Below are positions 24,932 to 46,034 of a DNA stretch of 64,000 bases, one piece after another. The DNA lies in assembly GCA_022710385.1 (NCBI GenBank), contig JAKLGZ010000001.1, positions 1 to 64,000 of the forward strand, written 5' to 3'. The notes below the pieces were generated by a model that saw only the letters and a list, made by a program, of their open reading frames with translations, had not been told where the DNA came from and searched no databases. This DNA is from Methanoregula sp. Lineage in GTDB: Archaea; Halobacteriota; Methanomicrobia; Methanomicrobiales; Methanospirillaceae. Within the stretch, counting starts at the first letter, position 1. Every line of letters starts with the position of its first letter. The position numbers and the translations under genes are program-made.

Positions 24932-26878
24932 ATGCTACCTTCCCGAACCTCCCTTTTCCACGGTCTGATGCTTCTTTTCGTAGGACTGATGCTCCTTATA
25001 TGCGGCTGCACATCGCTCCCTCCTGGCGATGCAGGAATTCCTATCGAGAGTCTTACTATCTATACCGAGCAGAACCCGCCCTACAACTACGAGGAGAACG
25101 GAACCCTGCAGGGGTTGTCAATCGACCTCTTTGAGGCGGTCACCGAACAGATGGGCAGACCTGTATCCCGTGATCAGATACAACTGGTCCCCTGGTCCGA
25201 GGGCTACCAGGCGGCCCTGCACGGCAACAAGACCATGATCTTTGCTATTGCCAGGCTTCCTGCAAGGGAGACCTCCTTTAAATGGGCCGGGCCCATCTAT
25301 CCCTATACCACCGTCCTCTTTGCCCGGCCTGACAGCGGGATCGCCATCACCAGTACTGAAGAGTTGGAGGGATACCGGATCGGAGTGATAGAAGATGACG
25401 CCGCCGTCCAGCAGCTGCTGGATGCCGGGGTGAACCAGAGCCAGCTCGTGCTGGAGACAAATGTCTCGACACTTGTCACCGAACTCCAGGAAGGCGGGAT
25501 CGACTTGTGGGCTTATTCGCAGACATCCGGCAGGTATTTCGCCAGGCAATTGACCGGCAACGCCTATAGCTTCACGATTGTTTACACATTCCCCGACATC
25601 CCAATCTATTTTGGCTTCAGCCGTGACGTGCCTGATGCAACCGTCCAGTCCTTCCAGCAGGCACTGGATGCCCTGAAGGCTGATAAGGACGTCAGGGGGA
25701 TCAGCACGTACGACGCGATTATCGGACGGCACGTTCCTCTCGTCGGGCTCTCCCATCTGCAGTACCTGACCGAGGAGTGGGCACCCTACAACTTCGAGGA
25801 GAACGGGACAGCCGGTGGTATTGGCGTCGGGATCCTGGAGGCGGTCTTCGCAGACATCGGGGTGAACCTCTCCCGGGAAGATGTGCAGATCGTCCCGCTT
25901 GCCGAAGGGTTCCGGGAGGTTCAGAACGGGAGCTCCGTGCTCTTCTCTATTGTCCGCTCTTCGGAGCGGGATCCTCTCTATCAGTGGGTCGGGCCATTCA
26001 CCCGCGGAAGTTTTGTCATTTATGCCCCGATGAACCGGAATATCACCATCGCCTCACCCGACGATCTGAACCGGTTCCGTATCGGGGCTGTTGAGGGAAC
26101 GATCGAGAACACCCTCCTTACTGACCGCGGCGTGAACACCTCCCGGATCATCAACGCCCCGGCGCCTGAGGATCTCCTCCGTATGCTTGAGGCAGGGGAG
26201 ATTGATCTCTGGGCTACCGGCGATCTTGCCGGCCGGCACCAGATGATGAAGACAGCTGAGGATCCGACTACCTATGAGATCGTTTACACCCTGAGCACGA
26301 ACGACTTCTACTTCGTGTTCAGCAAAGATGTTCCGGATACCCTGGTGAGTGCCTTTGGCCAGGCACTTGAGAACGTGCGTCTCCAGCGGGATGCCCAGGG
26401 GGTCAGCGAATATGAGCGGGTCATCTATCACTACCTTGGGGCCAGCTGTGCACGCCAGACCTTCACTGATGCAGAAGTGATAGCCCTTGTGAATATCACC
26501 GCTGCCGATATCGGGCGGAACACTCCCGACACGTTCCGGCGCATCAATGCGGGCGAAGCCCCCTACAAGAGCCCCGAACACCCTGACCTCTATGTATTTG
26601 TATACGATACGAACGTGACCCTGGTGGCCAGCGGCGACAATATCCGCCAGGTTGGTGTCAATTACCATGGCAAAACCGATGTAACCGGAAGACCGTTCCG
26701 TGATGAGATCGTCACCGCAGCGATAGCAGACGGGACAGGCTGGGTGGAGTATGTGTACAGCAATCCTCTGCAGACGGGAGTATTCTACAAGAATACCTAT
26801 TTCCGGCGGGCGGTGGGAAGTGATGGGAAGATCTATATTATCGCGGCAGGGAACTACCAGAGCTGCGAAGAGGTATAG
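24932..26878 (+). CDS. Lipoprotein with two tandem substrate-binding (SBP_bac_3) domains and a C-terminal Cache-like domain
   Basis: This 648-aa protein has a lipobox I-C-G-C at about residues 26-29. Two copies of a periplasmic-binding-protein type 3 domain follow (about 35-275 and 275-500), each starting with E-x-x-P-Y-N-Y/F-E-E-N-G-T and containing a hinge Y-R-I-G-V/A. The last part (about 510-640) shows Y-V-F-V-Y-D-T-N-V-T-L-V-A-S-G and G-R-P-F-R-D-E, as in small Cache sensor domains. There is no transmembrane kinase or chemoreceptor part, so it would work as an external ligand receptor with a partner not seen nearby. Confidence 0.85.
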   Translation: MLPSRTSLFHGLMLLFVGLMLLICGCTSLPPGDAGIPIESLTIYTEQNPPYNYEENGTLQGLSIDLFEAVTEQMGRPVSRDQIQLVPWSEGYQAALHGNKTMIFAIARLPARETSFKWAGPIYPYTTVLFARPDSGIAITSTEELEGYRIGVIEDDAAVQQLLDAGVNQSQLVLETNVSTLVTELQEGGIDLWAYSQTSGRYFARQLTGNAYSFTIVYTFPDIPIYFGFSRDVPDATVQSFQQALDALKADKDVRGISTYDAIIGRHVPLVGLSHLQYLTEEWAPYNFEENGTAGGIGVGILEAVFADIGVNLSREDVQIVPLAEGFREVQNGSSVLFSIVRSSERDPLYQWVGPFTRGSFVIYAPMNRNITIASPDDLNRFRIGAVEGTIENTLLTDRGVNTSRIINAPAPEDLLRMLEAGEIDLWATGDLAGRHQMMKTAEDPTTYEIVYTLSTNDFYFVFSKDVPDTLVSAFGQALENVRLQRDAQGVSEYERVIYHYLGASCARQTFTDAEVIALVNITAADIGRNTPDTFRRINAGEAPYKSPEHPDLYVFVYDTNVTLVASGDNIRQVGVNYHGKTDVTGRPFRDEIVTAAIADGTGWVEYVYSNPLQTGVFYKNTYFRRAVGSDGKIYIIAAGNYQSCEEV

Positions 26879-27857: not shown

Positions 27858-28658
27858 TTATCCTCCACGGGCAGCGAGCTTCATCGCTCTTACCAGATCC
27901 CCAATCCTGTTTCCGGGTCCTGAACCGGAAGATCCCCTATCACCGATCATCCTGATCAGGGCAGAACCCACGATAACCCCGTCAGCCCCTGCGTGTGTAT
28001 ACCGTCGGACATGTTCCGGTGTAGAGATCCCGAATCCCGGCACGACCGGAAGAGACGTCCTCTCTTTGACCACTTTCAGGAGGTCGATGGACTGCGGTGA
28101 GAGGTCCTCCCGGGTCCCGGTCACCCCGAGGGCAGCAACAAGGTAAATGAATCCCCCTGCTTTTGCGAGAATCTGTTCCCTGCGTTCCGGGGAGGTGGTC
28201 TGGCTTACGAAGAGGATGGGATCGATCCCCGCCATCCGTGCGGCAGCACAGAATGGATCTGCCTCTTCGAGCGGCACATCGGCAACCACCACCCCATCGG
28301 CTCCCGCATCTGCGGCATCACGGTAGAATTTCCGGATCCCTCTCCGGATCACGATGTTGGCATACGTCATGACGAGCAGGGGAATCCCGGTCTCTGCTCG
28401 TACCTCCCGGACCAGGTCAAACAGCCGGTCTGTGGTCATTCCCGCGGAACGTGCACGGGAGCCGGCCTGCTGGATCACGGGGCCGTCAGCCACCGGATCT
28501 GAAAATGGCATGACGATCTCGAGCATATCCGCCCCTGCGTCAACCAGTTCCCGGGAGATCTGCAGACTCTCTGGAAAGGAAGGATCACCGGCCACAACAC
28601 AGGGTACGATGAGCGGGCCTTCCCGCAACCGGAATGCACCATCGATACGGGAGTTCAT
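27858..28658 (-). CDS. trpA: Tryptophan synthase alpha subunit
   Basis: This 266-aa protein cleaves indole-3-glycerol phosphate to indole and glyceraldehyde 3-phosphate and channels indole to TrpB. Catalytic Glu and Asp are visible in [15 protein letters not shown], with the phosphate loops near G-F-G-I-S-T-P and G-S-A-L-I. It is the last gene of the operon, and its ATG overlaps the trpB stop by 4 nt (translational coupling). Confidence 0.97.
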
Positions 28659-29827
28659 GGATTACCCCCCATCAGCCCTGCAACCTGGGCGACGTCCTTG
28701 TCGCCCCGGCCGGAAAGATTGATAATGAGGATATCATCCGGTCCCCGACCCCCGGCAATCTGTCGCGCCAGTCCAACCGCGTGGGCAGATTCAAGGGCCG
28801 GGATGATCCCCTCGGTCCGGGAGAGATACAGGAATGAATCCACCGCTTCTGCATCGGTGACAGGCCGGTAGATCACCCGCCTGGTGTCATGAAGGAAGCT
28901 ATGCTCGGGCCCGACTCCGGGATAATCAAGGCCGGCAGAGATGCTGTGGGATTCGAGGATCTGGCCGAACGCATCCTGAATCAGGTAGGTGTATGATCCA
29001 TGGAGCACCCCTGGTGTTCCCCCGCAAAGCGTAGCACCATGCCGCCCGGCCAGGCCTTCCCCTCCGGCTTCCGCCCCCCAGAGCTCCACCGGGTCATCGA
29101 GGAAGGGGGCGAACATCCCGATGGCATTGGATCCTCCCCCGACACAGGCCACCATGGCATCCGGGAGTCGGCCTTCCTTTGCCATCACCTGCTCCCGGAT
29201 CTCGTTCCCGATAACGGTCTGGAACTCCCGCACAAGCGAGGGGAAGGGATGGGGACCGACGACCGAGCCGATCAGGTAGTGGGTGTCCTGCACGTTCGTC
29301 ACCCAGTCCCGGAGGGCTTCATTGATGGCGTCCTTCAGGGTCCGTGATCCCGACGCGACCGCAATGACTTTTGCGCCGAGCATATGCATTCGTGCAACGT
29401 TCAGGGACTGCCTCCGGATATCCTCCTCTCCCATGTATACTTCCACCGGGAGACCGAGCGCTGCCCCGGCAATGGCGGTAGCCACCCCGTGCTGCCCTGC
29501 CCCGGTCTCTGCGATGATCCGCTGTTTTCCCATGCATTTTGCCAGGAGCGCCTGGCCAAGTGCATTGTTCAGCTTGTGGGCGCCCGAATGCAGCAGATCT
29601 TCCCGCTTCAGGTATATCCTGCAGTTGAGGTCTGCCGAGAGATTCCGGCAGAACGTGAGGGGGGTGGGGCGGCCAGCATACTCGGTCAGGTAATATTTCA
29701 TCTCCTCCCTGAACTCGTCCGATGGTATGATCGTCCGGTACGCCTCCTCAAGCTCATTGAGGGCATACATCAGGCTCTCGGGGACGAATTGGCCTCCATA
29801 CTCCCCGAACCGTGCCGTTGATCTCAC
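28655..29827 (-). CDS. trpB: Tryptophan synthase beta subunit (TrpB1 type)
   Basis: This 390-aa PLP enzyme condenses indole and serine to tryptophan. The PLP lysine sits in [10 protein letters not shown], the phosphate-binding loop is [10 protein letters not shown], and the N-terminal [11 protein letters not shown] marks the TrpB1 class that pairs with TrpA. It starts with GTG, whose GTGA overlaps the trpF stop, after an AGAGGTGAGG Shine-Dalgarno sequence. Confidence 0.97.
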
Positions 29828-30405
29828 CCCCTCACCTCTTTTGCCCGCTGGATAAATGCTCTCACCTTCTCCCGGGCTTTTTTTCCCGGTGTATATTCCA
29901 CTCCCGTTGCCACGTCAACCCCTGCGGGGTGCACGGTCCTGATCGCTGCTACGACGTTATCCGGGGTCAGTCCGCCGGCAAGAAAGACAGGGACCCGTGC
30001 CGACTGCACTACCGACAGCGCATAGGCGCGGTCATACTGCCTGCCGCTCCCGTGGCTGGCATCGATGACAAGGACATCGGCATCATCGGGTATCCGGTCG
30101 CCCGGGCGGATACTCCGGAATACCATGGCCGTGCAGGATGCCGGAATCGGTATGGACGGGGGTACCTGGATGGCATCCGGGGCAAGGTCACAGAGTGCCT
30201 CCATCTCCCTGGAAGATGGCCCATGGGATACACAACACTGGAACAGCGTTGGGACGGCATCGAAGATCTCCCGGATCATGTCCGGCTCGATGCAACGGGC
30301 GGATGGCGAGAAGGCAATCACCCCGATCATATCGGCCCCTGCCTCCTGTGCCATGATCGCATCACCGACACTCGTAATGCCGCATATTTTTACCCGCGTA
30401 TCAAT
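29824..30405 (-). CDS. trpF: Phosphoribosylanthranilate isomerase, start codon unresolved
   Basis: TrpF converts phosphoribosylanthranilate to CdRP. The first canonical start (ATG 30354) gives only 176 residues and leaves out the conserved V-K-I-C-G-I-T strand with the catalytic Cys. That motif is nevertheless encoded, intact and in frame, directly upstream (codons from 30393), overlapping the end of trpC. No ATG, GTG or TTG precedes it in this frame. The nearest rare start is ATT at 30405, one base after GGAGGG; it is used here as a provisional start. The catalytic Asp is in V-L-V-I-D-A-S-H. Translation may rely on coupling to trpC, or the start may be a sequence error. Confidence 0.88.
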
Positions 30406-31151
30406 CCCTCCAGTCGTTGTCCGGGATTCTGAGCCCGCATGATGGTGCTCCCGACCAGAAATGCATCGGCAGACGGCCTGAGGATCCTGATGTCATACGG
30501 CCAGAGTATGCCGCTCTCGGACACCACCGTAATGCCTCCCTCGCGGAGCAGGGGTGACAATTTCATCGTGGTACCGAGATCGATCCTGAACGTCCTGAGA
30601 TCACGGTTGTTGATCCCGGCAAGGCGGGTGCCGGTCGACAGGACTTCCTGTACCTCGTGTGCAGTATGCACTTCCACGAGCGGTTCAAGTCCGTATGCAA
30701 ACGCGAGGTCTACCATATCACCCAGCCGGTCCCCGAGTACGCCGGCAATGAGAAGGACCGCATCGGCAGCAAGCGCCCGGCTCTCTGCAAGCTGTCGTTC
30801 ATCGATGATAAAGTCTTTCCGGAGCAGCGGGAGATCCACGTGCGGCCGAATCGCAGGAAGGAACGCCGAATCGCCGTGGAAATAGTACGGTTCGGTGAGG
30901 ACCGAGAGGGCAGTGGCACCGGCTCGGGCAAAGTCCCGGGCAAACCCCACCGGGTCACCCGCTCTCCGTATGGTCCCGGCGGAAGGAGAGGCATATTTTA
31001 TCTCGGCGATAATCCGGTTTCCCGGTTTCTTTTGATGAATCGCCTCATTCAGGCTGCGGGAGGAAGAGGGGGGAGGCAGGGGATACTCCTCTGCCCCGCG
31101 CAACCCGGCTACCCTTCCTGCAGTTGCCCGGAGGACCTGTTCGAGCATCAT
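30390..31151 (-). CDS. trpC: Indole-3-glycerol phosphate synthase
   Basis: This 253-aa TIM barrel closes CdRP into indole-3-glycerol phosphate with loss of CO2 and water. Family residues are seen in I-I-A-E-I-K-Y-A-S-P-S, L-R-K-D-F-I-I-D, I-N-N-R-D-L-R-T-F and V-S-E-S-G-I. The ATG overlaps the trpD stop by 4 nt, and the 3' end overlaps the start of trpF by about 16 nt. Confidence 0.97.
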   Translation of the reverse strand: MMLEQVLRATAGRVAGLRGAEEYPLPPPSSSRSLNEAIHQKKPGNRIIAEIKYASPSAGTIRRAGDPVGFARDFARAGATALSVLTEPYYFHGDSAFLPAIRPHVDLPLLRKDFIIDERQLAESRALAADAVLLIAGVLGDRLGDMVDLAFAYGLEPLVEVHTAHEVQEVLSTGTRLAGINNRDLRTFRIDLGTTMKLSPLLREGGITVVSESGILWPYDIRILRPSADAFLVGSTIMRAQNPGQRLEGLIRG

Positions 31152-32164
31152 GGGATGCCCCTGGAAGCACGGATCAGTGCCGCGAGACGTCCGGCAGCTG
31201 CTCCGGAAGTGATCGAGTCTTCTGCCTTCTCAATCCCATGGCCAAGGTCCTTTGCCCCATCGCCGAGGTAGATGGCAGCCCCCGCGTTCATGACCACCAC
31301 GTCATGGGCGGGCCCGGGAACCCCGGAGAGGATCTTCTGTATGATCGCTGCATTGAACTTCGGTGAACTGCCGGCAAGGGCCGAGTGCGGGGACCGGGGG
31401 ATGCCGAACGCTTCAGGGGTGACGGTATACTGGTGTATCGCTCCCTGGTCAATTTCAGCCACCAGGGTCGGGCCGGAGACCGCGATCTCATCGAGCCCCT
31501 GGCCATGCACCACCATCGCCCGCTCGGTGCCGAGTGCAAGGAGGGCATGGGAGAACCGGTCGACAAGAGCAGGACTGTACACCCCGCAGAGCCGAGCCGG
31601 TGCCCCGGCCGGGTTGAGCAGCGGGCCGAGCAGGTTGAACACCGATGAAAACCCCAGTTCCTTCCGGACTGCCGCGGCATGTCGGAGGGCCGGGTGGAAG
31701 GCAGGGGCAAAGAGGAACCCGATGCCGGTCTCTTCCACGATTGAACAGACCCGTTCAGGTGGGACGTCGATCCGAACACCAAGGGCTTCCAGGACATCTG
31801 CGGATCCACACGAGCTGCTCACGCTCCGGTTCCCATGCTTGACCACTGGGATCCCGGCTCCGGCTGCAACAAAGGCTGCTGCCGTGCTGATGTTGAAGGT
31901 CCCGGAACCATCCCCTCCGGTCCCACAGGTATCCACGAACCTTCCGCGGACCTGCGGCTTTATGGTCAGGGCATGGCGGAGCAGCACCTGGACAAAGCCC
32001 GTGATCTCCTCTGCCGTCTCCCCCTTGATGTGAAGGGCCGTGATCAGCGAGGCGATCTGTGCCCCGGTAGCCTGCCCGGTGGCAATCATCTCCATGACCG
32101 CCGCTGCCTGGTCGGACTCGAGCGGTTCTCCGTCTGCTAGACGGGCAAGAATTGCCTGCATCAT
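31148..32164 (-). CDS. trpD: Anthranilate phosphoribosyltransferase
   Basis: This 338-aa protein transfers phosphoribose from PRPP to anthranilate. The PRPP-binding loop G-T-G-G-D-G-S-G-T-F-N-I-S-T, the H-G-N-R-S anthranilate contact and the helical N-terminal domain are present. ATG 32164 was chosen because it follows GGAGGGG by a few bases and overlaps the trpG stop; a GTG at 32176 would add four residues inside trpG. Confidence 0.97.
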   Translation of the reverse strand: MMQAILARLADGEPLESDQAAAVMEMIATGQATGAQIASLITALHIKGETAEEITGFVQVLLRHALTIKPQVRGRFVDTCGTGGDGSGTFNISTAAAFVAAGAGIPVVKHGNRSVSSSCGSADVLEALGVRIDVPPERVCSIVEETGIGFLFAPAFHPALRHAAAVRKELGFSSVFNLLGPLLNPAGAPARLCGVYSPALVDRFSHALLALGTERAMVVHGQGLDEIAVSGPTLVAEIDQGAIHQYTVTPEAFGIPRSPHSALAGSSPKFNAAIIQKILSGVPGPAHDVVVMNAGAAIYLGDGAKDLGHGIEKAEDSITSGAAAGRLAALIRASRGIP

Positions 32165-32742
32165 GCCCCTCCACACGATCCTACCAGGAAATTCTTCACG
32201 AGGAGTTTTCCGGTTGGGGTCATGATACTCTCCGGGTGAAACTGGACCCCGGTAACCCCGAGGTCAGGATGCGTCACCGCCATGATACACTGGTCATCCG
32301 AAGAGACGGCCCGGACCTGAAACCCCGGCGGGAGAGATGCAGGATCCACCATCAGTGAATGGTACCGCGTGGCGGTAAAGGGAGACGGGATCCCGGAAAA
32401 AATGCCCTCGCCGGTATGGACGATGCTGCTGGTCTTTCCATGGACAGGAACCAGCATCCGGGATATCCTCCCGCCGAATGTCTGGACAATGGTCTGGTGC
32501 CCAAGGCAGACCCCGAGGATCGGGATGCTCCCGGCATACTCCCTGATCACGTCACGGCAGATCCCGGACTCATCCGGCGTTCCCGGGCCAGGGGAGAGGA
32601 TGATCCGTTCAGGGTCCTGGTCCCTCACCTCCTCAAGCAGTGCATCACAGGGGATTGTGAGAGGCACACTCCCCAGCTGGCCGACCAGCTGGTAGAGGTT
32701 ATAGGTAAAGCTGTCATAGCAGTCGATGATAGCCACCCTCAT
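32161..32742 (-). CDS. trpG: Anthranilate synthase glutamine amidotransferase subunit
   Basis: This 193-aa class I amidotransferase supplies ammonia to TrpE. The triad is visible: Cys in L-G-V-C-L-G-H-Q, and His-x-Glu in Q-F-H-P-E-S. The oxyanion segment S-P-G-P-G-T-P is present. The ATG overlaps the trpE stop by 4 nt, so both subunits are made together. Confidence 0.97.
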   Translation of the reverse strand: MRVAIIDCYDSFTYNLYQLVGQLGSVPLTIPCDALLEEVRDQDPERIILSPGPGTPDESGICRDVIREYAGSIPILGVCLGHQTIVQTFGGRISRMLVPVHGKTSSIVHTGEGIFSGIPSPFTATRYHSLMVDPASLPPGFQVRAVSSDDQCIMAVTHPDLGVTGVQFHPESIMTPTGKLLVKNFLVGSCGGA

Positions 32743-34208
32743 GGTCCACCCCCGCTTTCCCCGACAGCACTCACCATAGCCCGGGCTTTCTGCACGGTCT
32801 CCTCGAATTCCCGATCAGGGATCGAGTCAGCCACGATCCCGGCTCCGGTTGAACACTCGGCCCGACCGCCCTTCACCCGGACGGTCCTGATGGCGATGGC
32901 AAACTCGAGCAGGTCGTCAAACCCGCAATACCCGACTGCCCCGGCATACAACCCCCTCGGGGATGCCTCCAGGTCTGCGATGATCTGCATCGCACGGATC
33001 TTCGGTGCCCCGCTCACCGTTCCGGCCGGGAAACAGGAGGCAAGGGCATCGAACCGGTCTTTTCCCCTGGCAACGATCCCGCAGACCCGGGAGACGATAT
33101 GCTGGACATGCGAGAATCTCTCGATCTCCATGAATTCCGGGACCGTGACCGAGCCGAAGGTTGAGACACGCCCGATATCGTTCCGGGCGAGATCGACCAG
33201 CATCAGGTGCTCTGCCCGCTCCTTCTCATCTGCGAGAAGTTCCTTAGCAAGGCGGCTGTCCTCCTCCGGATCCTTTCCGCGTGGCCTGGTGCCTGCGATA
33301 GGCACGGTCTGTACCACTCCCCGCTGGACTTTGACCAGCATCTCGGGGCTTGATCCGACGATCGCCTCGTCCCCGAAGTTCAGGTAATAGAGGTAGGGCG
33401 AAGGATTGATGGAACGGATCCGGCAATAGATATCAAGGGGGTTACCATTGAACGGCACCGTAATCTTCCGTGAGAGGACGACCTGGAAGATATCTCCTGC
33501 CATGATGTGTCCTTTTGCTTTCCTTACCATCTCCAGGTATCCCTCCTGGTCCTCCTGCCCCGGATCCGGCAATGCCCCCATCGCAGGGCTGCAAGTGCCG
33601 GTGCCAGCTGGTATTGGGATATCCTGTATCCTTTTTTCCAGGGCATCCAGTCGCTGCTGTGCCAGACGTATCGCCTCGTCTCCCTCATATCCGTGAGGGA
33701 GGAGGATATCCTCAAAGAGGAGGCAGGACCCCTGCACATGATTGTACACGATGCCCCTTGTCGAACACATGAACCGGGCAAGGGGAATATCATCCCTTCC
33801 TGCCTGGACATGCCCACCCGAAAGACTGGTCACCATGTCATAGCTGCAGTACCCGACAAAGCCCCCGTCAAAGTCTCCCTCGCCTCCCGGTGTATACGAG
33901 AACCGCGAGGACAAAGACCGGAGCTGGCTGACCGGATCATCCCCCAAAAGAGGAGGGAAGAGGGAACCGCCAGGGTATGTTCCGGAAATCGCCGGAGATT
34001 CTCCAAGGACGATCTCAAACTCCGGTTCCATACCGATTATGGAACGGACCGCCCTTCTTGGGACCCCTTCCATCGATTCGAGGATATATCCCTTGGTGAT
34101 CTTCAGGGCACAAAAGAGGGTAAACGGATCGACTCCCGGAAGAGGTATAATCCTCTTTATGGGGATAACCTGGAAAGGAGGGTATTGTTCGGGCTGATGG
34201 CCATTCAC
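32739..34208 (-). CDS. trpE: Anthranilate synthase component I
   Basis: This enzyme makes anthranilate from chorismate and ammonia; 489 residues if started at GTG 34208. Conserved chorismate-site segments are G-T-R-P-R-G, A-E-H-L-M-L-V-D-L-A-R-N-D and V-S-G-A-P-K-I-R-A. An ATG at 34280 would add 24 residues, but it lies within a palindrome and 10-14 nt before the TATA box centre permits transcription to begin, so the GTG with AGGA 5 nt upstream is preferred. The first residues then lead quickly into P-I-K-R-I-I-P-L-P, where family similarity starts. The enzyme is usually feedback-inhibited by tryptophan. Confidence 0.95.
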   Translation of the reverse strand: MNGHQPEQYPPFQVIPIKRIIPLPGVDPFTLFCALKITKGYILESMEGVPRRAVRSIIGMEPEFEIVLGESPAISGTYPGGSLFPPLLGDDPVSQLRSLSSRFSYTPGGEGDFDGGFVGYCSYDMVTSLSGGHVQAGRDDIPLARFMCSTRGIVYNHVQGSCLLFEDILLPHGYEGDEAIRLAQQRLDALEKRIQDIPIPAGTGTCSPAMGALPDPGQEDQEGYLEMVRKAKGHIMAGDIFQVVLSRKITVPFNGNPLDIYCRIRSINPSPYLYYLNFGDEAIVGSSPEMLVKVQRGVVQTVPIAGTRPRGKDPEEDSRLAKELLADEKERAEHLMLVDLARNDIGRVSTFGSVTVPEFMEIERFSHVQHIVSRVCGIVARGKDRFDALASCFPAGTVSGAPKIRAMQIIADLEASPRGLYAGAVGYCGFDDLLEFAIAIRTVRVKGGRAECSTGAGIVADSIPDREFEETVQKARAMVSAVGESGGGP

Positions 34209-34262
34209 TGCCGTCCTGGGGACGGCATTCCCCAGTCCAGCGGCATCACGTACTTGGTATTC

Positions 34263-34280
34263 ATGTACAAATAAGTACAT
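34263..34280. promoter_or_regulatory. TrpY-like operator palindrome (ATGTAC-N6-GTACAT)
   Basis: This is a perfect 6+6 inverted repeat around A-A-A-T-A-A, placed 10-30 bases downstream of the TATA box, where it would overlap the transcription start. The half-sites read TGTAC/GTACA, close to the TGTACA TRP box known for TrpY regulators in Methanothermobacter. A regulator bound here would block polymerase. No trpY gene is in the window. Confidence 0.5.
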
Positions 34281-34289
34281 TGATGGATT

Positions 34290-34297
34290 TATTTATA
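34290..34297 (-). promoter_or_regulatory. trp operon TATA box
   Basis: TATAAATA on the minus strand, preceded by an A-rich BRE-like ACAAAAG, is a near-consensus archaeal promoter. Transcription is expected at about 34267-34270. A second, weaker TATAC element lies about 10 nt upstream (around 34303-34308). Confidence 0.6.
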
Positions 34298-34480
34298 CTT
34301 TTGTATACCTTTTTGGATTATGAAATTTCATCCCCTTACCACCACATCTGAAGAGAAACCCCTGTGGATGATCCACCAATGGCACGGGGTTGCCGGCCAC
34401 TCCCTGGCCCATCACCCTCAAGCGATCAGTTTAACGTTCTTCCCCATGGTATTGCAATGGGAGAACTGCTGAGGAGAGTC

Positions 34481-35434
34481 ATGGCCAAAAAAACCAAGGG
34501 TACGAATACCAGGAATGGAAAAAATCGCGCGTTATTGATCGGTATTTTCATTGTGATCTTCCTTATAATGGCCGGGATATTCTCCTCCTTTTCAAAGGTG
34601 AATGACAATACCGATACGGCCTCTTGGTCACTCGATGAATCCAGCCTCCTCTCCGTGAGCGGCCGTACCCTGCCACCCATCACGGTATCCCCTCTCGAAG
34701 AAACGGTGAACTGCACGCTGGAGAAGATCAGCTACCAGAGCGATGACACGATGGTGTATGGCCTGTTGCGCCTCCCGAGAGAGGTCCAGATCCCACCGGT
34801 CGTTATCGTCCTGCCCGCAGCCACGGTCACAAAGGAAGGAGATTGGGCAATGGCAGATGCCCTCTGTTCCTTCGGGTATGCCTCGCTCACCCTGGATGAA
34901 CGGGGCAACGGCGGCGAAACGCAGGGAGTCTCACCGATGGATCTTCAAACAGGCTACACTGCCTACCGCAACAGGGAGATGCCCGCCCAGTATGCACAGA
35001 TCTACGATGTGCTCATCGCCTATGACTACCTTCAAACCCGGAAAGATCTGGATGGGGATGCTATCGCAGTACTAGGTGAGAGCATGGGCGGCCGTTTTGC
35101 GATCATCACCGCGGGAATCGAGCCGGGTATTAAGGGTGCGTTTGTTGTCAGCTCTGGTCCTTACGGGGTCGATGCCGGGAACAATCCGGACGTGCAGCGG
35201 TTTATTACCTCGATCGAGCCTGAAAGATATCTGCTGAAGCTGCCCCCACGGCCACTGGTCATGTTCCACTTTACCGACGACCCGATCATCCCTCTCGCTG
35301 AAGGGAAGGCACTCTACAACAAGGCCCTTTCACCCAAAGCCTGGCACCAGTATAACGGGACCGTGCATGGCGTCTACAGCGAGACCTATGCCGAGGATTT
35401 GCACGCAGAACTGAAGGAGATTTTCGGAAGGTGA
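34481..35434 (+). CDS. Membrane-anchored alpha/beta hydrolase
   Basis: This 317-aa protein has one N-terminal helix (L-L-I-G-I-F-I-V-I-F-L-I-M-A-G) that holds an alpha/beta hydrolase outside the membrane. The nucleophile elbow is G-E-S-M-G-G near residue 200; the acid is likely Asp in F-T-D-D-P-I-I-P near 264 and the His in G-T-V-H-G-V near 293. The profile fits the S9/dienelactone hydrolase class (esterase or peptidase). The ATG at 34481 was chosen for GAGGAGAG 2 nt upstream; upstream ATGs at 34364 and 34457 lack such a site. It is divergent from the trp operon. Confidence 0.85.
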   Translation: MAKKTKGTNTRNGKNRALLIGIFIVIFLIMAGIFSSFSKVNDNTDTASWSLDESSLLSVSGRTLPPITVSPLEETVNCTLEKISYQSDDTMVYGLLRLPREVQIPPVVIVLPAATVTKEGDWAMADALCSFGYASLTLDERGNGGETQGVSPMDLQTGYTAYRNREMPAQYAQIYDVLIAYDYLQTRKDLDGDAIAVLGESMGGRFAIITAGIEPGIKGAFVVSSGPYGVDAGNNPDVQRFITSIEPERYLLKLPPRPLVMFHFTDDPIIPLAEGKALYNKALSPKAWHQYNGTVHGVYSETYAEDLHAELKEIFGR

Positions 35435-40700: not shown

Positions 40701-43700
40701 GTGACGAAACTGTTTTTGGGACTTGTTCTCTGTGTAGTGTTGATCGCCGGGGGCGAGGCAGCCGTACCGGTCGGGTACCAGTTCAACGGGACATGGGGAG
40801 GACTCGGCAGTGAGCCTGGAAATTTTTCCAGCCCTCTTGGCATTGCATCGGACCAGGCAGGAAATGTCTACGTAGTCGATAGCAATAACCACAGAATCCA
40901 GAAATTTTCATCAAGCGGGACATTTCTCACCGAATGGGGTAGTCTCGGTGAATGGAACGGATTCTTACAATACCCCGCTGGAATTACTGTTGATCGTGAC
41001 GGAACTGTCCTTGTTACCGATGCTGGGAATAACCGGGTCCAGGTATTTACCGATGAGGGGATGTTCATCAATGCCTGGGGTTCAGATGGGGTGGGGGATG
41101 GCGAATTCTGGTATGCGGAGGGTATCGCGTGCGATTCGGAAGGGAATGTATACGTCGTCGATCACGGGAATCACCGGGTCCAGAAATTCGACCCGACGGG
41201 AGTGTTCCTGGCCAAATGGGGGAAAAATGGCGGTGACGGTTCATCAGGGACCGGACCGGGAGAATTTTATCATCCGCGTGGCATCCTGGTCGACCAGAGC
41301 GACAGGGTCTACGTGGTCGATACTGAGAATAACCGAGTCCAGAAATTCGATCTGAACGGAAGTTACCTGGGAGAGTGGGGCTCCTTTGGTTCCGGAGATG
41401 GCAAGTTCACCGCTCCGCGTGGCATTGCTGCAGATGGTGGCGGGAATGTCATGGTCGTGGAGGAATTGAATCACCGGGTCCAGAAATTCACCCCGGATGG
41501 AATTTTTATCTCATCATGGGGCATTGAGGGTTCGCTTGCCGGACAATTCTCTCATCCTTGTGGTATTGCTGTCGGTTCGAATGGTGAGATCTCTATAACG
41601 GATAGCAACAACCACCGGATCCAGTGTTTCAGGCCGGTAATCTCCTTTGTCAACAAGATGGGGGCATCCGGAACCGGACCCGGCGAGTTCATCCTACCTA
41701 CGGGTGTTGCCTATGACGCCTTTGGGGACCTCTACATAACCGACATGGGAAATCACCGGATCCAGAAGTATGCTGCTGATGGGACCTGGTTGTGCTCATG
41801 GGGGACCCAGGGTGCAGAAGAGGGGCAGTTCCATTGGCCATGGGGTATCGCCATCAATGGAACCGGGTACGTCTATGTAGGTGATTCGATGAACAACCGG
41901 GTCCAGGTTTTTTCCGGAAACGGAACGTTTGTCACTTCGTGGGGCTATTATGGAACCGGAGCAGGAGAGTTCAATGCTCCGTGCGATATCGCACTTGATC
42001 CTGCAGACAGGGTATATGTCGCCGATTACGGGAACCAGCGGATCCAGGTTTTTGAGGCTGACGGGACCTACCTGTTTACCGCATGGGGGGAAGGCTACCT
42101 TAATCCCCGGGGGATTACGATAGACAGGAACGGGAATATTGTCTGTGCTGACGATGCTCTTCGCAGGATATACACTCTTTCTCCGACGGGAGCATATATC
42201 CGATATTGGGGATCAAACGGCACCGGACCCGGTGAATTTTATTTTCCTTCTGGAGTTGTGACTGACGGGAACGGGGATTTTTACATCACCGACACCATGA
42301 ACCACCGGGTACAGAAGTTGAATGAAACCGGCGGGTTCATCGCATCATGGGGATCATTTGGGAGTGCTGATGGGCAGTGTAACCAGCCATACGGGATAGC
42401 CCTCAGTCCAGGGGGTGCCCTTGCCATCACCGATAGTGAAAATGCCCGTATTCTGCATTACACCACGACTGGAGCGAGGAGCCCAGTCCTTGGGTCAATC
42501 GATCCGGATACCGGTTTTCTCGGACTGCCAGTGACTATTGTCAGCCTCTCCGGCTCGTATTTCCAGGAAGGCCCGCCTGCACCCCAGGTCAATCTGAAAA
42601 GGGCCGGGCAGAGTCTGGTGAGAGGATCTGAGGTTTCCGTCCTGTCCCCAGAACGGATTGCCTGCAGGTTTGACCTTCCTGCAGATCCTGCTGCTGAGGG
42701 GATATGGGATGTTGTTCTCACCAATCCTGATGGTCAGTCAGTGACCCTTGGGAGTGCTTTCAGGATTGAATCCCTGCACGTGCTGGGGATAGATCCCCCT
42801 TCCGGTGTTATCGGAACTCCCGGCATCGGCTACTCGGTCACGGGAACCGGTTTTCACCCCGGCTCTTCTGATACTGAAGTGGCACTGAACCGATCAGGGT
42901 ATCCTGATATTCCCGCCACAAATGTCACGGTTCAGTCTTCCCGGAACATCACCTGCAATTTCGGTTTTCCCTCTGATGAGGCTGTGCTGGGAATATGGAA
43001 TGTTGTGGTTACCGGTCCGGGAGGACAATCTGCGTCTCTTCCGGATGGCTTTTCTCTTGTGCTCCCACCCCCATGTATTACTGATATTCATCCGTCAACA
43101 GGAGTGAACAATGCCAGTGTTAGGGTCACTCTCCTCGGATCGGGTTTCAGGCCTGGGATGAATGAGACCGCTGTACGACTCAATCAGACCGGACATCCCG
43201 ATATTATCGGAACATCGGTATCAGTTCTCTCATCAGGGGAGCTGTCCTGTCAATTTGGCATTCCTGCTGATGGAGCCGGGAGCGGAATCTGGGATGTCGT
43301 GGTGACAAATCCCGATCACCAGGCAGGGAGTTTACAGGAAGGGTTCATTACCGCTCAGCCGGACAATTCATTCGTCCTGGAGTGGGGATCAGATGGAGTC
43401 GGACCCGGGCAGTTCTGGCACCCGTATGATATCACGGTCGATAAACAAAGGAGCAAGGTCTATGTGGTGGACTATAACCTGAACCGTGTCCAGAAGTTTA
43501 CCACTGACGGCAGGTACCTGGGCGGATGGGGGTCCTGGGGGAATGGAACCAGCCAGTTCATGTGTCCAACCGGCATCGCAGTGGACAGTACCGGGAATAT
43601 TTTTGTGGGAGACTCGTGGAATTACCGGGTCCAGAAATTCAACAGTACATTTGGCTACCTGACGCACTGGGGCTCTCCTGGAAATGATGAAGGCGAGTTC

Positions 43701-46034
43701 GACACACCATGGGGTGTTGCAGTGGACAGCGATGACAACGTCTATATTTCTGATTTTGATGGGGTGTATATCCAGAAATTCAACGGGAACGGTGAATTTA
43801 TCCTGCGTTTTGGAGGGGCTGGATCTGGTCCGGGCCAGCTGGTGAATTCCTGGGCGGTCGCCGTTGACCGGAATGATGATGTACTGGTTGCCGATACCGT
43901 GAACCACCGCGTGCAGAAATTTTCAAAGAATGGAGATTTTCTCACTATGTGGGGTTCAGCCGGGACCGGGAACGGGCAATTTGACTTCAGCCGTGGTATC
44001 GCAACCGACGGCCTCGGGAACGTCTATGTTGTCGATGGAGGCAATAACCGGGTTCAGAGGTTCAGTGGTGACGGAGTATACCTGTCCCAGTGGGGTTCCT
44101 ATGGGAATGGTTCCGGGCAGTTTGACTACCCCTATGGTATTGCCACGGACAGCGCCGGATTCGTCTATGTCGTAGATAATTTTAACCACCGGGTCCAGCT
44201 CTTTGCGCCCGGGGCCATCACACCGGGAATACGTTCGATTGACCCGAACAGCAGCATCCCCGGTTCCCCTGTGAACCTTACCATACAGGGGGCGAATTTC
44301 TACACCGGGGAGATGAAACCCACCGTGATCCTTCACCGCACGGGGCATCCGGACATCATTGCGACGGAGGTCAATGCGGTCTCCTCTGATCTGATCACCT
44401 GCAAATGTATTCTTCCAACCGGGGGTGATGCAATCGGGGACTGGAATGTCACCATCACCAATCCCGATGGAAAGTCCATCACCCTTGTCGACGGGTTCAG
44501 TATTGTTCCTCCCACTTCGATCACGCTTACGACTCCGGTTGGAGGTGAGAACTGGACCAGGGGGACTGATGTGACCCTGTCATGGATTTATCGTGATGAT
44601 CCAGGTCCCCAGGTCAGGATCGAACTCCTCAAAGGAGCATCGCTGAGCCAGGTGATCCTTGAGAATGCCCCCATCGGGTTTGCCGGCTCAGGATTCGCTG
44701 TCTGGACGATACCCTTCGACCAGGATCCCGGGGCGGATTACCGGGTCCGGATCACCAGCGTCAGCACTCCCGCGTATACCGATACCAGCAGGGCAGCCTT
44801 TCGTATCAGTGCCGGTGCCCCGATAACGGTGACTGCGCCGAATGGCAACGAGAGCTGGAAACCGGGGACCAGCCAGAGAATCTGGTGGAAGTATACAGGG
44901 AATCCGGGACCTGCCGTTAAGATTGAGGCCCTCCGGGGAGAGACAGTCCTTGGAATTGTTACCCCGAGTACACCCCTCGGAGAGAACGGATTCGGTTCAT
45001 TTCCTCTCACGGTGCCCATGAACGCCCCTTATGGCACCGATTATCGGATCCGGGTCACCGATACCAATGATTCCACCTGCACTGATACGAGTGATGGGCC
45101 CTTCAAGGTCATTTCAGGTACCGGGGCCTCCATCACTCTGGTTTCCCCCAACGGCGGTGATGACTGGCAGCAGGGCTCCACGCGTACGATCAGCTGGAAC
45201 TATATCGGCGATCCTGGTCCAACAGTGAAGATTGAGGCACTTCGGGGAGATACGGTACTTGCGGTCATCGCTCCCGGTGCTCCGGTAGGTATAGGAGGTT
45301 CGGGATCGCTGAACCTGACGTTGCCCATCAATGCCCCGCTCGGTACTGACTATCGTATCCGGATCTCAAGTACCAGTAATAGTGTCTACACCGATATGAG
45401 CGATGCCCCCTTCAGCATCAGTGGTAATACCAGTTCCTCAATAATGGTAATATCACCTGATGGTGGTGAAAACTACCTGCAGGGATCTACCCAGGCCATT
45501 CGATGGACCTATACTGGAAATCCAGGACCCACGCTCAGGATCGAGGCATTGCGAGCTGAGAAGCTACTGGCAGTGATCATGTCTAGTTATCCAATCGGGG
45601 CAGGAGGTTCAGGCTCTTTCAACCTGACATTCCCCTACAACACGCCCCTCGGGTCTGATTACACGATCCGGGTCACCAGCACCAGCAATCCTGCCTGGAC
45701 TGATACGAGCGATGATTCATTCACAGTCAGTCCGGCGATCACCGTGGCGACTCCCAACGGGGGAGAAACCTATCAGGTTGGCGACATCCTTTCCATGAAT
45801 TGGACCTATACCGGCAATCCCGGCCCGACAGTGGATATTGCTGTGATGAAGGGGCCAGCCACCCTGAAAACACTCGCCGGTATCTCCATCGGAGCAGGTG
45901 GATCCGGATCCTACCAGGTGACAATTCCTTCCTCAACCCCATCGGGATCTGATTACAAGATCCAGGTTACCAGCACCAGCTATCCCGCTTGTAGTGATAG
46001 GAGTGATGAGGCGTTCACGATCATTGCCGGGTGA
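40701..46034 (+). CDS. Giant NHL-TIG-KNH mosaic surface protein
   Basis: This 1777-aa exported protein starts at GTG 40701 with GGGGAG a few nt before it and a signal peptide (L-F-L-G-L-V-L-C-V-V-L-I-A-G-G-E-A). Parts in order: about a dozen NHL repeats (about 25-595) of the type W-G-x-x-G-x-G-P-G-E-F / N-x-Y-V-x-D-x-x-N-H-R-I-Q-K-F, enough for two six-bladed propellers; three TIG/IPT Ig domains (about 600-880); a second NHL propeller (about 890-1170); a TIG domain (about 1173-1272); and five KNH-type repeats (1273-1777). No C-terminal helix or sorting motif is visible. It probably binds other cells or polymers. The final repeats resemble the protein cut at the window start. Confidence 0.92.
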   Translation: MTKLFLGLVLCVVLIAGGEAAVPVGYQFNGTWGGLGSEPGNFSSPLGIASDQAGNVYVVDSNNHRIQKFSSSGTFLTEWGSLGEWNGFLQYPAGITVDRDGTVLVTDAGNNRVQVFTDEGMFINAWGSDGVGDGEFWYAEGIACDSEGNVYVVDHGNHRVQKFDPTGVFLAKWGKNGGDGSSGTGPGEFYHPRGILVDQSDRVYVVDTENNRVQKFDLNGSYLGEWGSFGSGDGKFTAPRGIAADGGGNVMVVEELNHRVQKFTPDGIFISSWGIEGSLAGQFSHPCGIAVGSNGEISITDSNNHRIQCFRPVISFVNKMGASGTGPGEFILPTGVAYDAFGDLYITDMGNHRIQKYAADGTWLCSWGTQGAEEGQFHWPWGIAINGTGYVYVGDSMNNRVQVFSGNGTFVTSWGYYGTGAGEFNAPCDIALDPADRVYVADYGNQRIQVFEADGTYLFTAWGEGYLNPRGITIDRNGNIVCADDALRRIYTLSPTGAYIRYWGSNGTGPGEFYFPSGVVTDGNGDFYITDTMNHRVQKLNETGGFIASWGSFGSADGQCNQPYGIALSPGGALAITDSENARILHYTTTGARSPVLGSIDPDTGFLGLPVTIVSLSGSYFQEGPPAPQVNLKRAGQSLVRGSEVSVLSPERIACRFDLPADPAAEGIWDVVLTNPDGQSVTLGSAFRIESLHVLGIDPPSGVIGTPGIGYSVTGTGFHPGSSDTEVALNRSGYPDIPATNVTVQSSRNITCNFGFPSDEAVLGIWNVVVTGPGGQSASLPDGFSLVLPPPCITDIHPSTGVNNASVRVTLLGSGFRPGMNETAVRLNQTGHPDIIGTSVSVLSSGELSCQFGIPADGAGSGIWDVVVTNPDHQAGSLQEGFITAQPDNSFVLEWGSDGVGPGQFWHPYDITVDKQRSKVYVVDYNLNRVQKFTTDGRYLGGWGSWGNGTSQFMCPTGIAVDSTGNIFVGDSWNYRVQKFNSTFGYLTHWGSPGNDEGEFDTPWGVAVDSDDNVYISDFDGVYIQKFNGNGEFILRFGGAGSGPGQLVNSWAVAVDRNDDVLVADTVNHRVQKFSKNGDFLTMWGSAGTGNGQFDFSRGIATDGLGNVYVVDGGNNRVQRFSGDGVYLSQWGSYGNGSGQFDYPYGIATDSAGFVYVVDNFNHRVQLFAPGAITPGIRSIDPNSSIPGSPVNLTIQGANFYTGEMKPTVILHRTGHPDIIATEVNAVSSDLITCKCILPTGGDAIGDWNVTITNPDGKSITLVDGFSIVPPTSITLTTPVGGENWTRGTDVTLSWIYRDDPGPQVRIELLKGASLSQVILENAPIGFAGSGFAVWTIPFDQDPGADYRVRITSVSTPAYTDTSRAAFRISAGAPITVTAPNGNESWKPGTSQRIWWKYTGNPGPAVKIEALRGETVLGIVTPSTPLGENGFGSFPLTVPMNAPYGTDYRIRVTDTNDSTCTDTSDGPFKVISGTGASITLVSPNGGDDWQQGSTRTISWNYIGDPGPTVKIEALRGDTVLAVIAPGAPVGIGGSGSLNLTLPINAPLGTDYRIRISSTSNSVYTDMSDAPFSISGNTSSSIMVISPDGGENYLQGSTQAIRWTYTGNPGPTLRIEALRAEKLLAVIMSSYPIGAGGSGSFNLTFPYNTPLGSDYTIRVTSTSNPAWTDTSDDSFTVSPAITVATPNGGETYQVGDILSMNWTYTGNPGPTVDIAVMKGPATLKTLAGISIGAGGSGSYQVTIPSSTPSGSDYKIQVTSTSYPACSDRSDEAFTIIAG
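44518..46031 (+). repeat. Five tandem KNH-type coding repeats
   Basis: Repeat units begin near 44518, 44818, 45130, 45439 and 45736, each about 300 nt and each starting I-T/M-V-x-x-P-x-G-G. They are the coding counterpart of the partial repeat at 1-321, and could support recombination between the two loci. Confidence 0.75.

Follow-up and report, generated by a model that had tools for sequence, protein, structure and literature searches.

Possible two-layer tryptophan control of trpE in Methanomicrobiales: a promoter palindrome and an overlapping mini-ORF with a conserved Trp codon

Introduction

Where does expression of trpE begin, and what controls it, in a methanogen whose apparent trpE ATG lies inside a palindrome at the trp promoter? 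We addressed this question in a 64,000-nucleotide stretch of a Methanoregula sp. genome (the window), in which the trp operon lies on the minus strand (trpE at 32739-34235, then on to trpA, from 27858, in the list of open reading frames). The assembly it belongs to is a draft of 1.735 Mb in 197 contigs, about 74% complete. The features of the operon and its promoter are as follows.

27858..32742, minus strand: trpG, trpD, trpC, trpF, trpB and trpA, following trpE; named from the ORF sequences, not scanned.
32739..34235, minus strand: trpE, anthranilate synthase component I (Pfam Chorismate_bind, 3e-94; Anth_synt_I_N, 3.2e-17), with the frame taken as entered at the conserved element described below.
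34263..34280, no strand: putative palindromic operator ATGTAC-N6-GTACAT, equivalent to two TGTACA-type boxes 10 bp apart (TGTACA-AATA-AGTACA), from sequence and conservation.
34290..34297, minus strand: TATA box TATAAATA of the trp operon, a promoter element.

Results

A conserved palindrome at the trpE promoter

The palindrome ATGTACAAATAAGTACAT (ATGTAC-AAATAA-GTACAT) occupies 34263-34280. The initial annotation had reported it over 34263-34297, a span that also takes in the TATA box, and it is indeed there, as the only exact match both in the window (none in 100 shuffles) and in the whole assembly. With up to one mismatch the assembly has four sites, this one included, against two for a reversed control pattern; with up to two mismatches the window has four sites against 0.95 expected. 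Single TGTACA words number 10 in the window against 5.0 expected, a count reached by 3 of 100 shuffles, and such lone words are weak evidence.

Archaeal transcription starts about 25-27 bp from the centre of the TATA box. By this geometry the trpE transcript would start near 34267, within the palindrome, as the initial annotation had proposed. The ATG at 34280 would then sit upstream of the transcript, and in the relative G010 the same position reads ACG, with an in-frame stop just after it. We therefore rejected this ATG as the start of trpE, in agreement with the earlier claim.

Across the 12 genus genomes we scored 12 arm positions of the palindrome, allowing C or T and A or G at the inner ones. 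All 12 are kept at trpE in seven genomes (G000, G002, G004, G005, G006, G009, G011) and 11 in four (G003, G007, G008, G010); the best fit in G001 scores 10 and lies elsewhere, the corresponding place being degenerate. Far from being absent from all close relatives, the site is thus kept at trpE in 11 of the 12. In G002, G006 and G009 both arms are altered together (ATGTAT..ATACAT), as expected for the site of a dimer. The distance from the start of TATAAAT to the start of the palindrome is 17 nt in 11 of the 12 genomes, whereas that from the palindrome to the downstream conserved element is 30 or 39 nt, which argues that the palindrome is part of the promoter. Next to the TATA box, on its upstream side, is another small palindrome, GTATAC (34303-34308), which reads GTATAA in G011.

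The palindrome recurs at other tryptophan genes and across the order

We searched the genus for further sites with the pattern TGTAY-N6-RTACAT. The palindrome lies before a gene that we read from its sequence as trpB2 in 12 of 12 genomes, beginning 32-33 nt before the start codon (the one protein scanned matched PALP), and it precedes a gene for a TrpP-type transporter in 5 of 12 (G000, G002, G006, G009, G011), the other seven genomes not having been searched for trpP. One TrpP protein was scanned and matched PF17099 with an E value of 1.3e-12. In G010 a palindrome (L214, G010:C187) precedes, instead of trpP, a gene that by eye resembles an ECF transporter T component. Palindromes within the gene for ribosomal protein L30 and within a gene taken for purF were set aside as coding coincidences.

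For the order as a whole we used the pattern TGTAY-N6-RTACA, at most 160 nt upstream of the conserved element or, where the element is lacking, of a point 130 nt before the trpE core motif. Of 129 distinct trpE upstream regions, 43 have an exact site, compared with 0.06 in block shuffles, and 73 have one when a single mismatch is allowed (2.6 in block shuffles). Seventeen of the 43 exact sites read TGTATAAATATGTACA, that is, they lie over a TATA-like box. Many of the 56 regions without a site (the f5 loci, for example) lie directly behind another ORF, as judged by eye and not counted.

Its conservation and shared targets indicate that the palindrome is very probably the operator of a tryptophan regulon. 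Such an operator would extend a TrpY-type regulon (trp operon, trpB2, trpP) to the Methanomicrobiales, with two placements relative to the TATA box.

Candidate regulators

The TrpY consensus is TGTACA, and trpB2 is a TrpY target in Methanothermobacter. The trpE promoter studied here has boxes of this type, and the same site stands at trpB2 throughout the genus. The initial annotation's proposal is supported as far as the operator of a Trp regulon goes, with TrpY a putative binding protein. No trpY lies divergent from trpE; the divergent gene is the following.

34364..35434, plus strand: alpha/beta-hydrolase (matches to Hydrolase_4, DLH and related folds), not a regulator; its N-terminus resembles a membrane anchor by eye.

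A search with HTH_3 gave candidates in all four genus genomes searched. One of them, 177 aa long, combines HTH_3 with a region that weakly resembles PrpR_N. Of 246 genomes sampled from the phylum, 163 have a match to it at E 1e-6 or better, and the PDB gave a single weak match (E 0.024). None of the four HTH candidates scanned against NCBIfam had a TrpY-named match, and no operator was seen by eye at the candidate regulator gene. In two genomes of family f6 the HTH/PrpR_N-like gene is convergent with the presumed trpA at the end of the operon (L261, 862-1411, plus strand; L262, 1040-1553, plus strand), which is suggestive only, and we set this protein aside as TrpY.

That some regulator other than a TrpY relative binds the palindrome is a serious possibility, if short of probable. 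The sequence of the boxes and the pairing of trpE with trpB2 as targets agree with Methanothermobacter TrpY and speak against this; no TrpY was identified among the HTH_3 candidates of the four genus genomes, and another archaeon offers a precedent. According to the accessible part of PMC6737238, TrpY controls trpE in M. thermautotrophicus, whereas the TrpY homologue of Thermococcus kodakarensis does not bind its own trp promoter and that organism uses Tar (TK0271), with the site TGGACA-N8-TGTCCA; the same text mentions unexamined TrpY branches in other archaea, methanogens among them. Tar likewise is a palindrome-binding regulator of aromatic amino acid operons, but differs from what we describe in its site, in the position of that site upstream of BRE/TATA and in being an activator (PMC6737238, same part). 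The arrangement here differs from that of M. thermautotrophicus too: a single palindrome lies at the probable transcription start (in other genera over the TATA box) and not divergent from a trpY gene, trpP is added to the targets, and the binding protein is putative.

An order-wide element and mini-ORF at the 5' end of trpE

Downstream of the palindrome the trpE upstream regions share a second conserved sequence. In the window its parts are as follows.

34232..34250, minus strand: order-wide conserved element at the 5' end of trpE, here CGTGATGCCGCTGGACTGG, from comparison.
34205..34246, minus strand: mini-ORF MPLDWGMPSPGRQ with its stop, defining frame 0; ATG1 at 34244-34246, Trp codon TGG at 34232-34234, from comparison.
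34233..34235, minus strand: CTG in the trpE (-1) frame, overlapping the Trp codon; candidate entry point, from comparison.
34206..34208, minus strand: GTG taken by the initial annotation as the trpE start; with the mini-ORF stop TGA (34205-34207) it forms GTGA.
34210..34226, minus strand: hairpin GCCGTC-CCCAG-GACGGC, 5 nt after the Trp codon, from sequence and comparison.

The core of the element is ATG-CCN-NTG-GA(A/C)-TGG (Met-Pro-x-Asp/Glu-Trp; 34246-34232 in the window), and comparison of trpE upstream regions gave the fuller consensus (G/C)GTGATGCC(N)(S)TGGA(A/C)TGG. Of the order's 232 genomes, 110 have the exact element, with a leading GG or GA, and none matches a reversed control; the genome of the window carries a CGTG form and so falls outside the 110. 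Outside the order a slightly looser pattern matched 3 of 276 genomes, compared with 4 for the control, and neither of the two matches examined (all but the one in G489) had a trpE core motif nearby.

For comparison we used 103 distinct loci with at most three mismatches to the element. Another 26 of the 133 loci with a core motif exceeded this limit and were excluded; those of them that were inspected mostly have ordinary ATG starts. Twenty-one of the 110 exact-element genomes are not in the locus set, and 7 lacked the core motif (loci L140, L149-L152, L155-L157), as did L116 and L129, which have no exact element; L028 matched a wrong motif. Duplicate loci and bacterial matches from the protein search (L045-L070) were not used.

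ATG1, CCN and TGG are each invariant (103/103). Codon 3 is GTG in 73 loci, CTG in 21, TTG in 3, ATG in 3 and another codon in 3, and codon 4 is GAC in 58, GAA in 42, GGA in 2 and AGA in 1. Probabilities calculated for this codon choice (about 1e-17 and 1e-16) ignore kinship and are not used. Frame 0 closes after 5-32 codons. Loci without GGTG before ATG1 still have ATG1, four of them (L023, L033, L123, L125) with GGAGG 2-4 nt before it. In 33 of 103 loci a Shine-Dalgarno (SD) 5-mer is found in the 12 nt or so that precede the element (shuffles 6.75, maximum 14); most of these loci are related and operon-internal. These features suggest that the mini-ORF is probably translated.

Some loci depart from the pattern. 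In L132 (genus g36, outside the 103) a 1-nt insertion sets ATG1 in the trpE frame; TGG is lost there and GGAGG stands 7 nt before ATG1. In genus g5, presumably Methanoregula-like, four loci (L115, L107, L111, L114) have decayed-looking elements (MPGNW, MPMGW and MPMRW) that keep Met, Pro and Trp with the rest changed, and several others have no element and ordinary ATG starts.

The trpE frame is kept at the element, and start codons are missing in some species

The conserved trpE core LESxEG lies in the -1 frame relative to the mini-ORF, 144-192 nt downstream, in 107 of 107 loci (103 distinct). Indels between the element and the core preserve this frame, an argument for entry into the trpE frame at the element. 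The comparison places entry at 34233-34246, about 25-40 nt upstream of the GTG at 34208. The initial annotation had named that GTG as the translation start. GTG stands at this place in only 2 of 12 genus genomes (G000, G011), and the 80%-identical relatives G010 and G008 have GTC and ATC there, so we rejected it as a general start for the genus and kept it as a rival start for the window's own genome and G011 alone. The trpE frame of the window has two possible conventional starts, the ATG at 34280 and this GTG; G010 has neither of them and no other.

Indeed, 25 of the 103 loci are startless: the entry position holds CTG, and the trpE frame is free of ATG, GTG and TTG over the stretch that begins 60 nt upstream of the element and ends 45 nt short of the LESxEG core. 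They represent about three clades and include three single-contig genomes (G097, G099, G103), which makes assembly error an unlikely cause. In loci L075-L099 of family f5, presumably Methanoculleus-like (genus g21), a stop closes the trpE frame ahead of the element's GAT codon, at a distance of 6 nt in 21 of the 25 loci and of 36 nt in the other 4. Such conserved startless genes raise the possibility of wrongly annotated trpE starts in these genomes.

We also compared substitutions between close pairs. From about 30 nt after the element onwards, third positions in the trpE frame show a clear excess (92/174/288 at positions 1/2/3), whereas the first 30 nt show none (240/346/268). The pattern thus does not support coding directly after TGG and counts against entry there, although the overlap with the mini-ORF and the hairpin may mask an early third-position signal.

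A hairpin follows the Trp codon

In the genus of the window and its neighbours a stem of 6-7 bp with a 5-nt loop (GCCGTC-N5-GACGGC) starts 4-5 nt after the Trp codon. Among the six stem pairs a single one covaries (UA 11, CG 8 and UG 1 in 20 in-register rows), but 389 of 500 shuffles reach that count, which speaks against this as evidence. In further clades different stems occupy roughly this position (GCTC-N5-GAGC, CTGCC-N5-GGCAG, AGCCC-N5-GGGCT). Under a common rule (at least 4 pairs, beginning 3-6 nt after TGG, loop of 4-7, score at least 11) a hairpin is found in 64 of 103 loci, mostly with a spacer of 4-5 nt. Shuffles give 6.5 (maximum 12), and four positions further down the sequence give 3 to 15.

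All 25 startless loci have the hairpin, against 1.4 (maximum 5) in shuffles, although a place 45 nt further down still qualifies in 11 of the 25, which weakens the association. The 12 CTG loci without a hairpin all have another start codon. Taken locus by locus, the stem is better than its own shuffles at p<0.05 in 31 of 100 loci; the f5 stem is 4 bp and not significant per locus (p 0.055-0.275). The window mRNA could also form a CUGGGG/CCCCAG fold over the Trp codon (34216-34235, minus strand), exclusive with the GCCGTC/GACGGC hairpin. This alternative was seen by eye in few close relatives only, and we rejected it as a general feature.

Discussion

The palindrome and the mini-ORF together occupy about 75 bp, and we consider it reasonably likely that they form two layers of tryptophan control, at the level of DNA and of translation. 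In the first layer, a dimeric regulator responsive to tryptophan, TrpY-like in its site and regulon, would bind the palindrome as its operator and block the transcription start of trpEGDCFBA; trpB2 and, in genomes that have it there, trpP would be further targets. In the second, translation of a transcript from near 34267 would begin at ATG1 (34246); after Met-Pro-Leu-Asp the ribosomes would arrive at the Trp codon (34234-34232), which would serve as sensor. With plentiful charged tRNA-Trp they would read on and stop at 34205; with charged tRNA-Trp scarce they would pause, the hairpin being 5 nt ahead, and part of them would enter the -1 frame of trpE. They could do so by slipping in the P site while the Trp codon is hungry, or by aborting and restarting at the overlapping CTG or ATG.

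Extended to the order, the boldest reading is that trpE lacks a start codon in some species and is made only when mini-ORF ribosomes lose their frame at the single conserved Trp codon, so that low charged tRNA-Trp switches on TrpE beneath a TrpY-like repressor. We put its probability at roughly 0.38. We lean slightly towards a dependence of trpE frame entry on the Trp codon, and hold a true -1 frameshift to be a tentative proposal. If correct, such a programmed, amino-acid-sensing frameshift would be an archaeal counterpart of attenuation.

The overlapping reading frames, the second in the -1 frame and kept so at every locus, are those of programmed -1 frameshifting, but in the 103 loci there is no slippery heptamer X-XXY-YYZ; the element reads G-GAC-TGG or G-GAA-TGG. 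A P-site slip from GAC to GGA would pair poorly, one from GAA better. The portions of PMC8211752 available to us describe hungry-codon shifting, in which the P-site tRNA slips by -1 while the A site is empty, as a known process that needs no downstream structure, and give 5-9 nt as the usual distance of a stimulatory structure at known -1 sites. Many of the trpE loci have a putative structure although hungry-codon shifting needs none, and all lack a heptamer, and so they fit no single textbook class. The same portions record one demonstrated archaeal -1 frameshift (as of 2021), in fucA1 of Saccharolobus solfataricus. It too has overlapping ORFs in the -1 relation and a putative stem-loop; unlike trpE here it has the heptamer A-AAA-AAT, whereas the shift point in trpE would be a Trp codon in a gene of Trp synthesis.

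The main deflating alternative is plain initiation at the entry codon, be it ATG or CTG, with GGTGAT as the ribosome-binding site and with ATG1 and TGG as by-products of that site and of a +4 G. ATG at the entry position in 45 of 103 loci shows that initiation there is possible, GGTGAT resembles an SD complement, and L032 keeps GGTGA and the ATG at the same spacing without ATG1. The gap from GGTGAT to the CTG or ATG is 9 nt, however, as against -3 to 3 in 18 of 25 reference genes and 9 in one (a small, unverified set from six stretches, with SD and start chosen automatically). The remaining 58 loci have CTG and none has GTG or TTG, starts that the reference genes use 9 and 5 times, respectively; +4 G is present in 103 of 103 loci compared with 7 of 25 reference genes; and ATG1 persists where GGTG is gone. 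Plain initiation explains poorly the unchanging ATG1 and TGG and the lack of GTG and TTG; we regard it as rather unlikely. Only A or C occurs at the first position of the entry codon in the 103 loci (the additional decayed locus L115 has TTG), which neither model explains.

Another alternative is abortion and restart. An acidic residue 4 and the hungry Trp codon could drop the early ribosome, with a new start at the overlapping CTG or ATG, and residue 4 is indeed Asp or Glu in 100 of 103 loci. In the part of PMC8092293 consulted, early Asp/Glu codons of Salmonella mgtQ, also a very short ORF, destabilise its ribosomes and raise downstream translation, but through an RNA switch and not through a change of frame or through Trp. 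No archaeal case is known to us, and the hairpin would fall within the footprint of the initiating ribosome; we find this route doubtful as the explanation of trpE translation. For the genome of the window and G011 alone, the GTGA overlap would allow ribosomes that end at the TGA (34205-34207) to restart at the GTG at 34208. Ten of the 12 genus genomes lack that GTG, among them G010 with no ATG, GTG or TTG in the trpE frame, and the frame is already kept upstream, so that such a restart appears improbable even there.

Classical transcription attenuation has the mini-ORF with its Trp codon before trpE, the hairpin behind it and, in the window, the two exclusive folds (CUGGGG/CCCCAG and GCCGUC/GACGGC) in its favour. 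It is nevertheless very improbable: by eye no U-run of an intrinsic terminator follows the hairpin, the second fold was seen in few genus members only, and the overlap of trpE with the mini-ORF leaves little room for a terminator before trpE. The proposed loss of frame at the Trp codon shares with trpL-type leaders and hungry-codon frameshifting a short ORF with a Trp codon before trpE and a starvation-dependent loss of frame, known from the available parts of PMC8211752 and PMC5009743. It differs from trpL-type leaders in that the mini-ORF overlaps trpE in another frame, with a single conserved Trp codon and no terminator seen. Titles and abstract openings among the literature matches listed included no paper on archaeal trpE recoding or a Trp leader ORF, and a term search found neither trpE nor anthranilate in the available text of PMC8211752 and PMC3711429 or in the first part of PMC5009743.

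Two further genes of the window attracted attention by eye. A 1777-aa ORF at 40701-46034 (plus strand), with many NHL-type repeats and IPT/TIG-like domains, is likely to encode a large surface protein. The 648-aa protein encoded at 24932-26878 (plus strand) has tandem halves resembling substrate-binding proteins and a C-terminal cache-like part.
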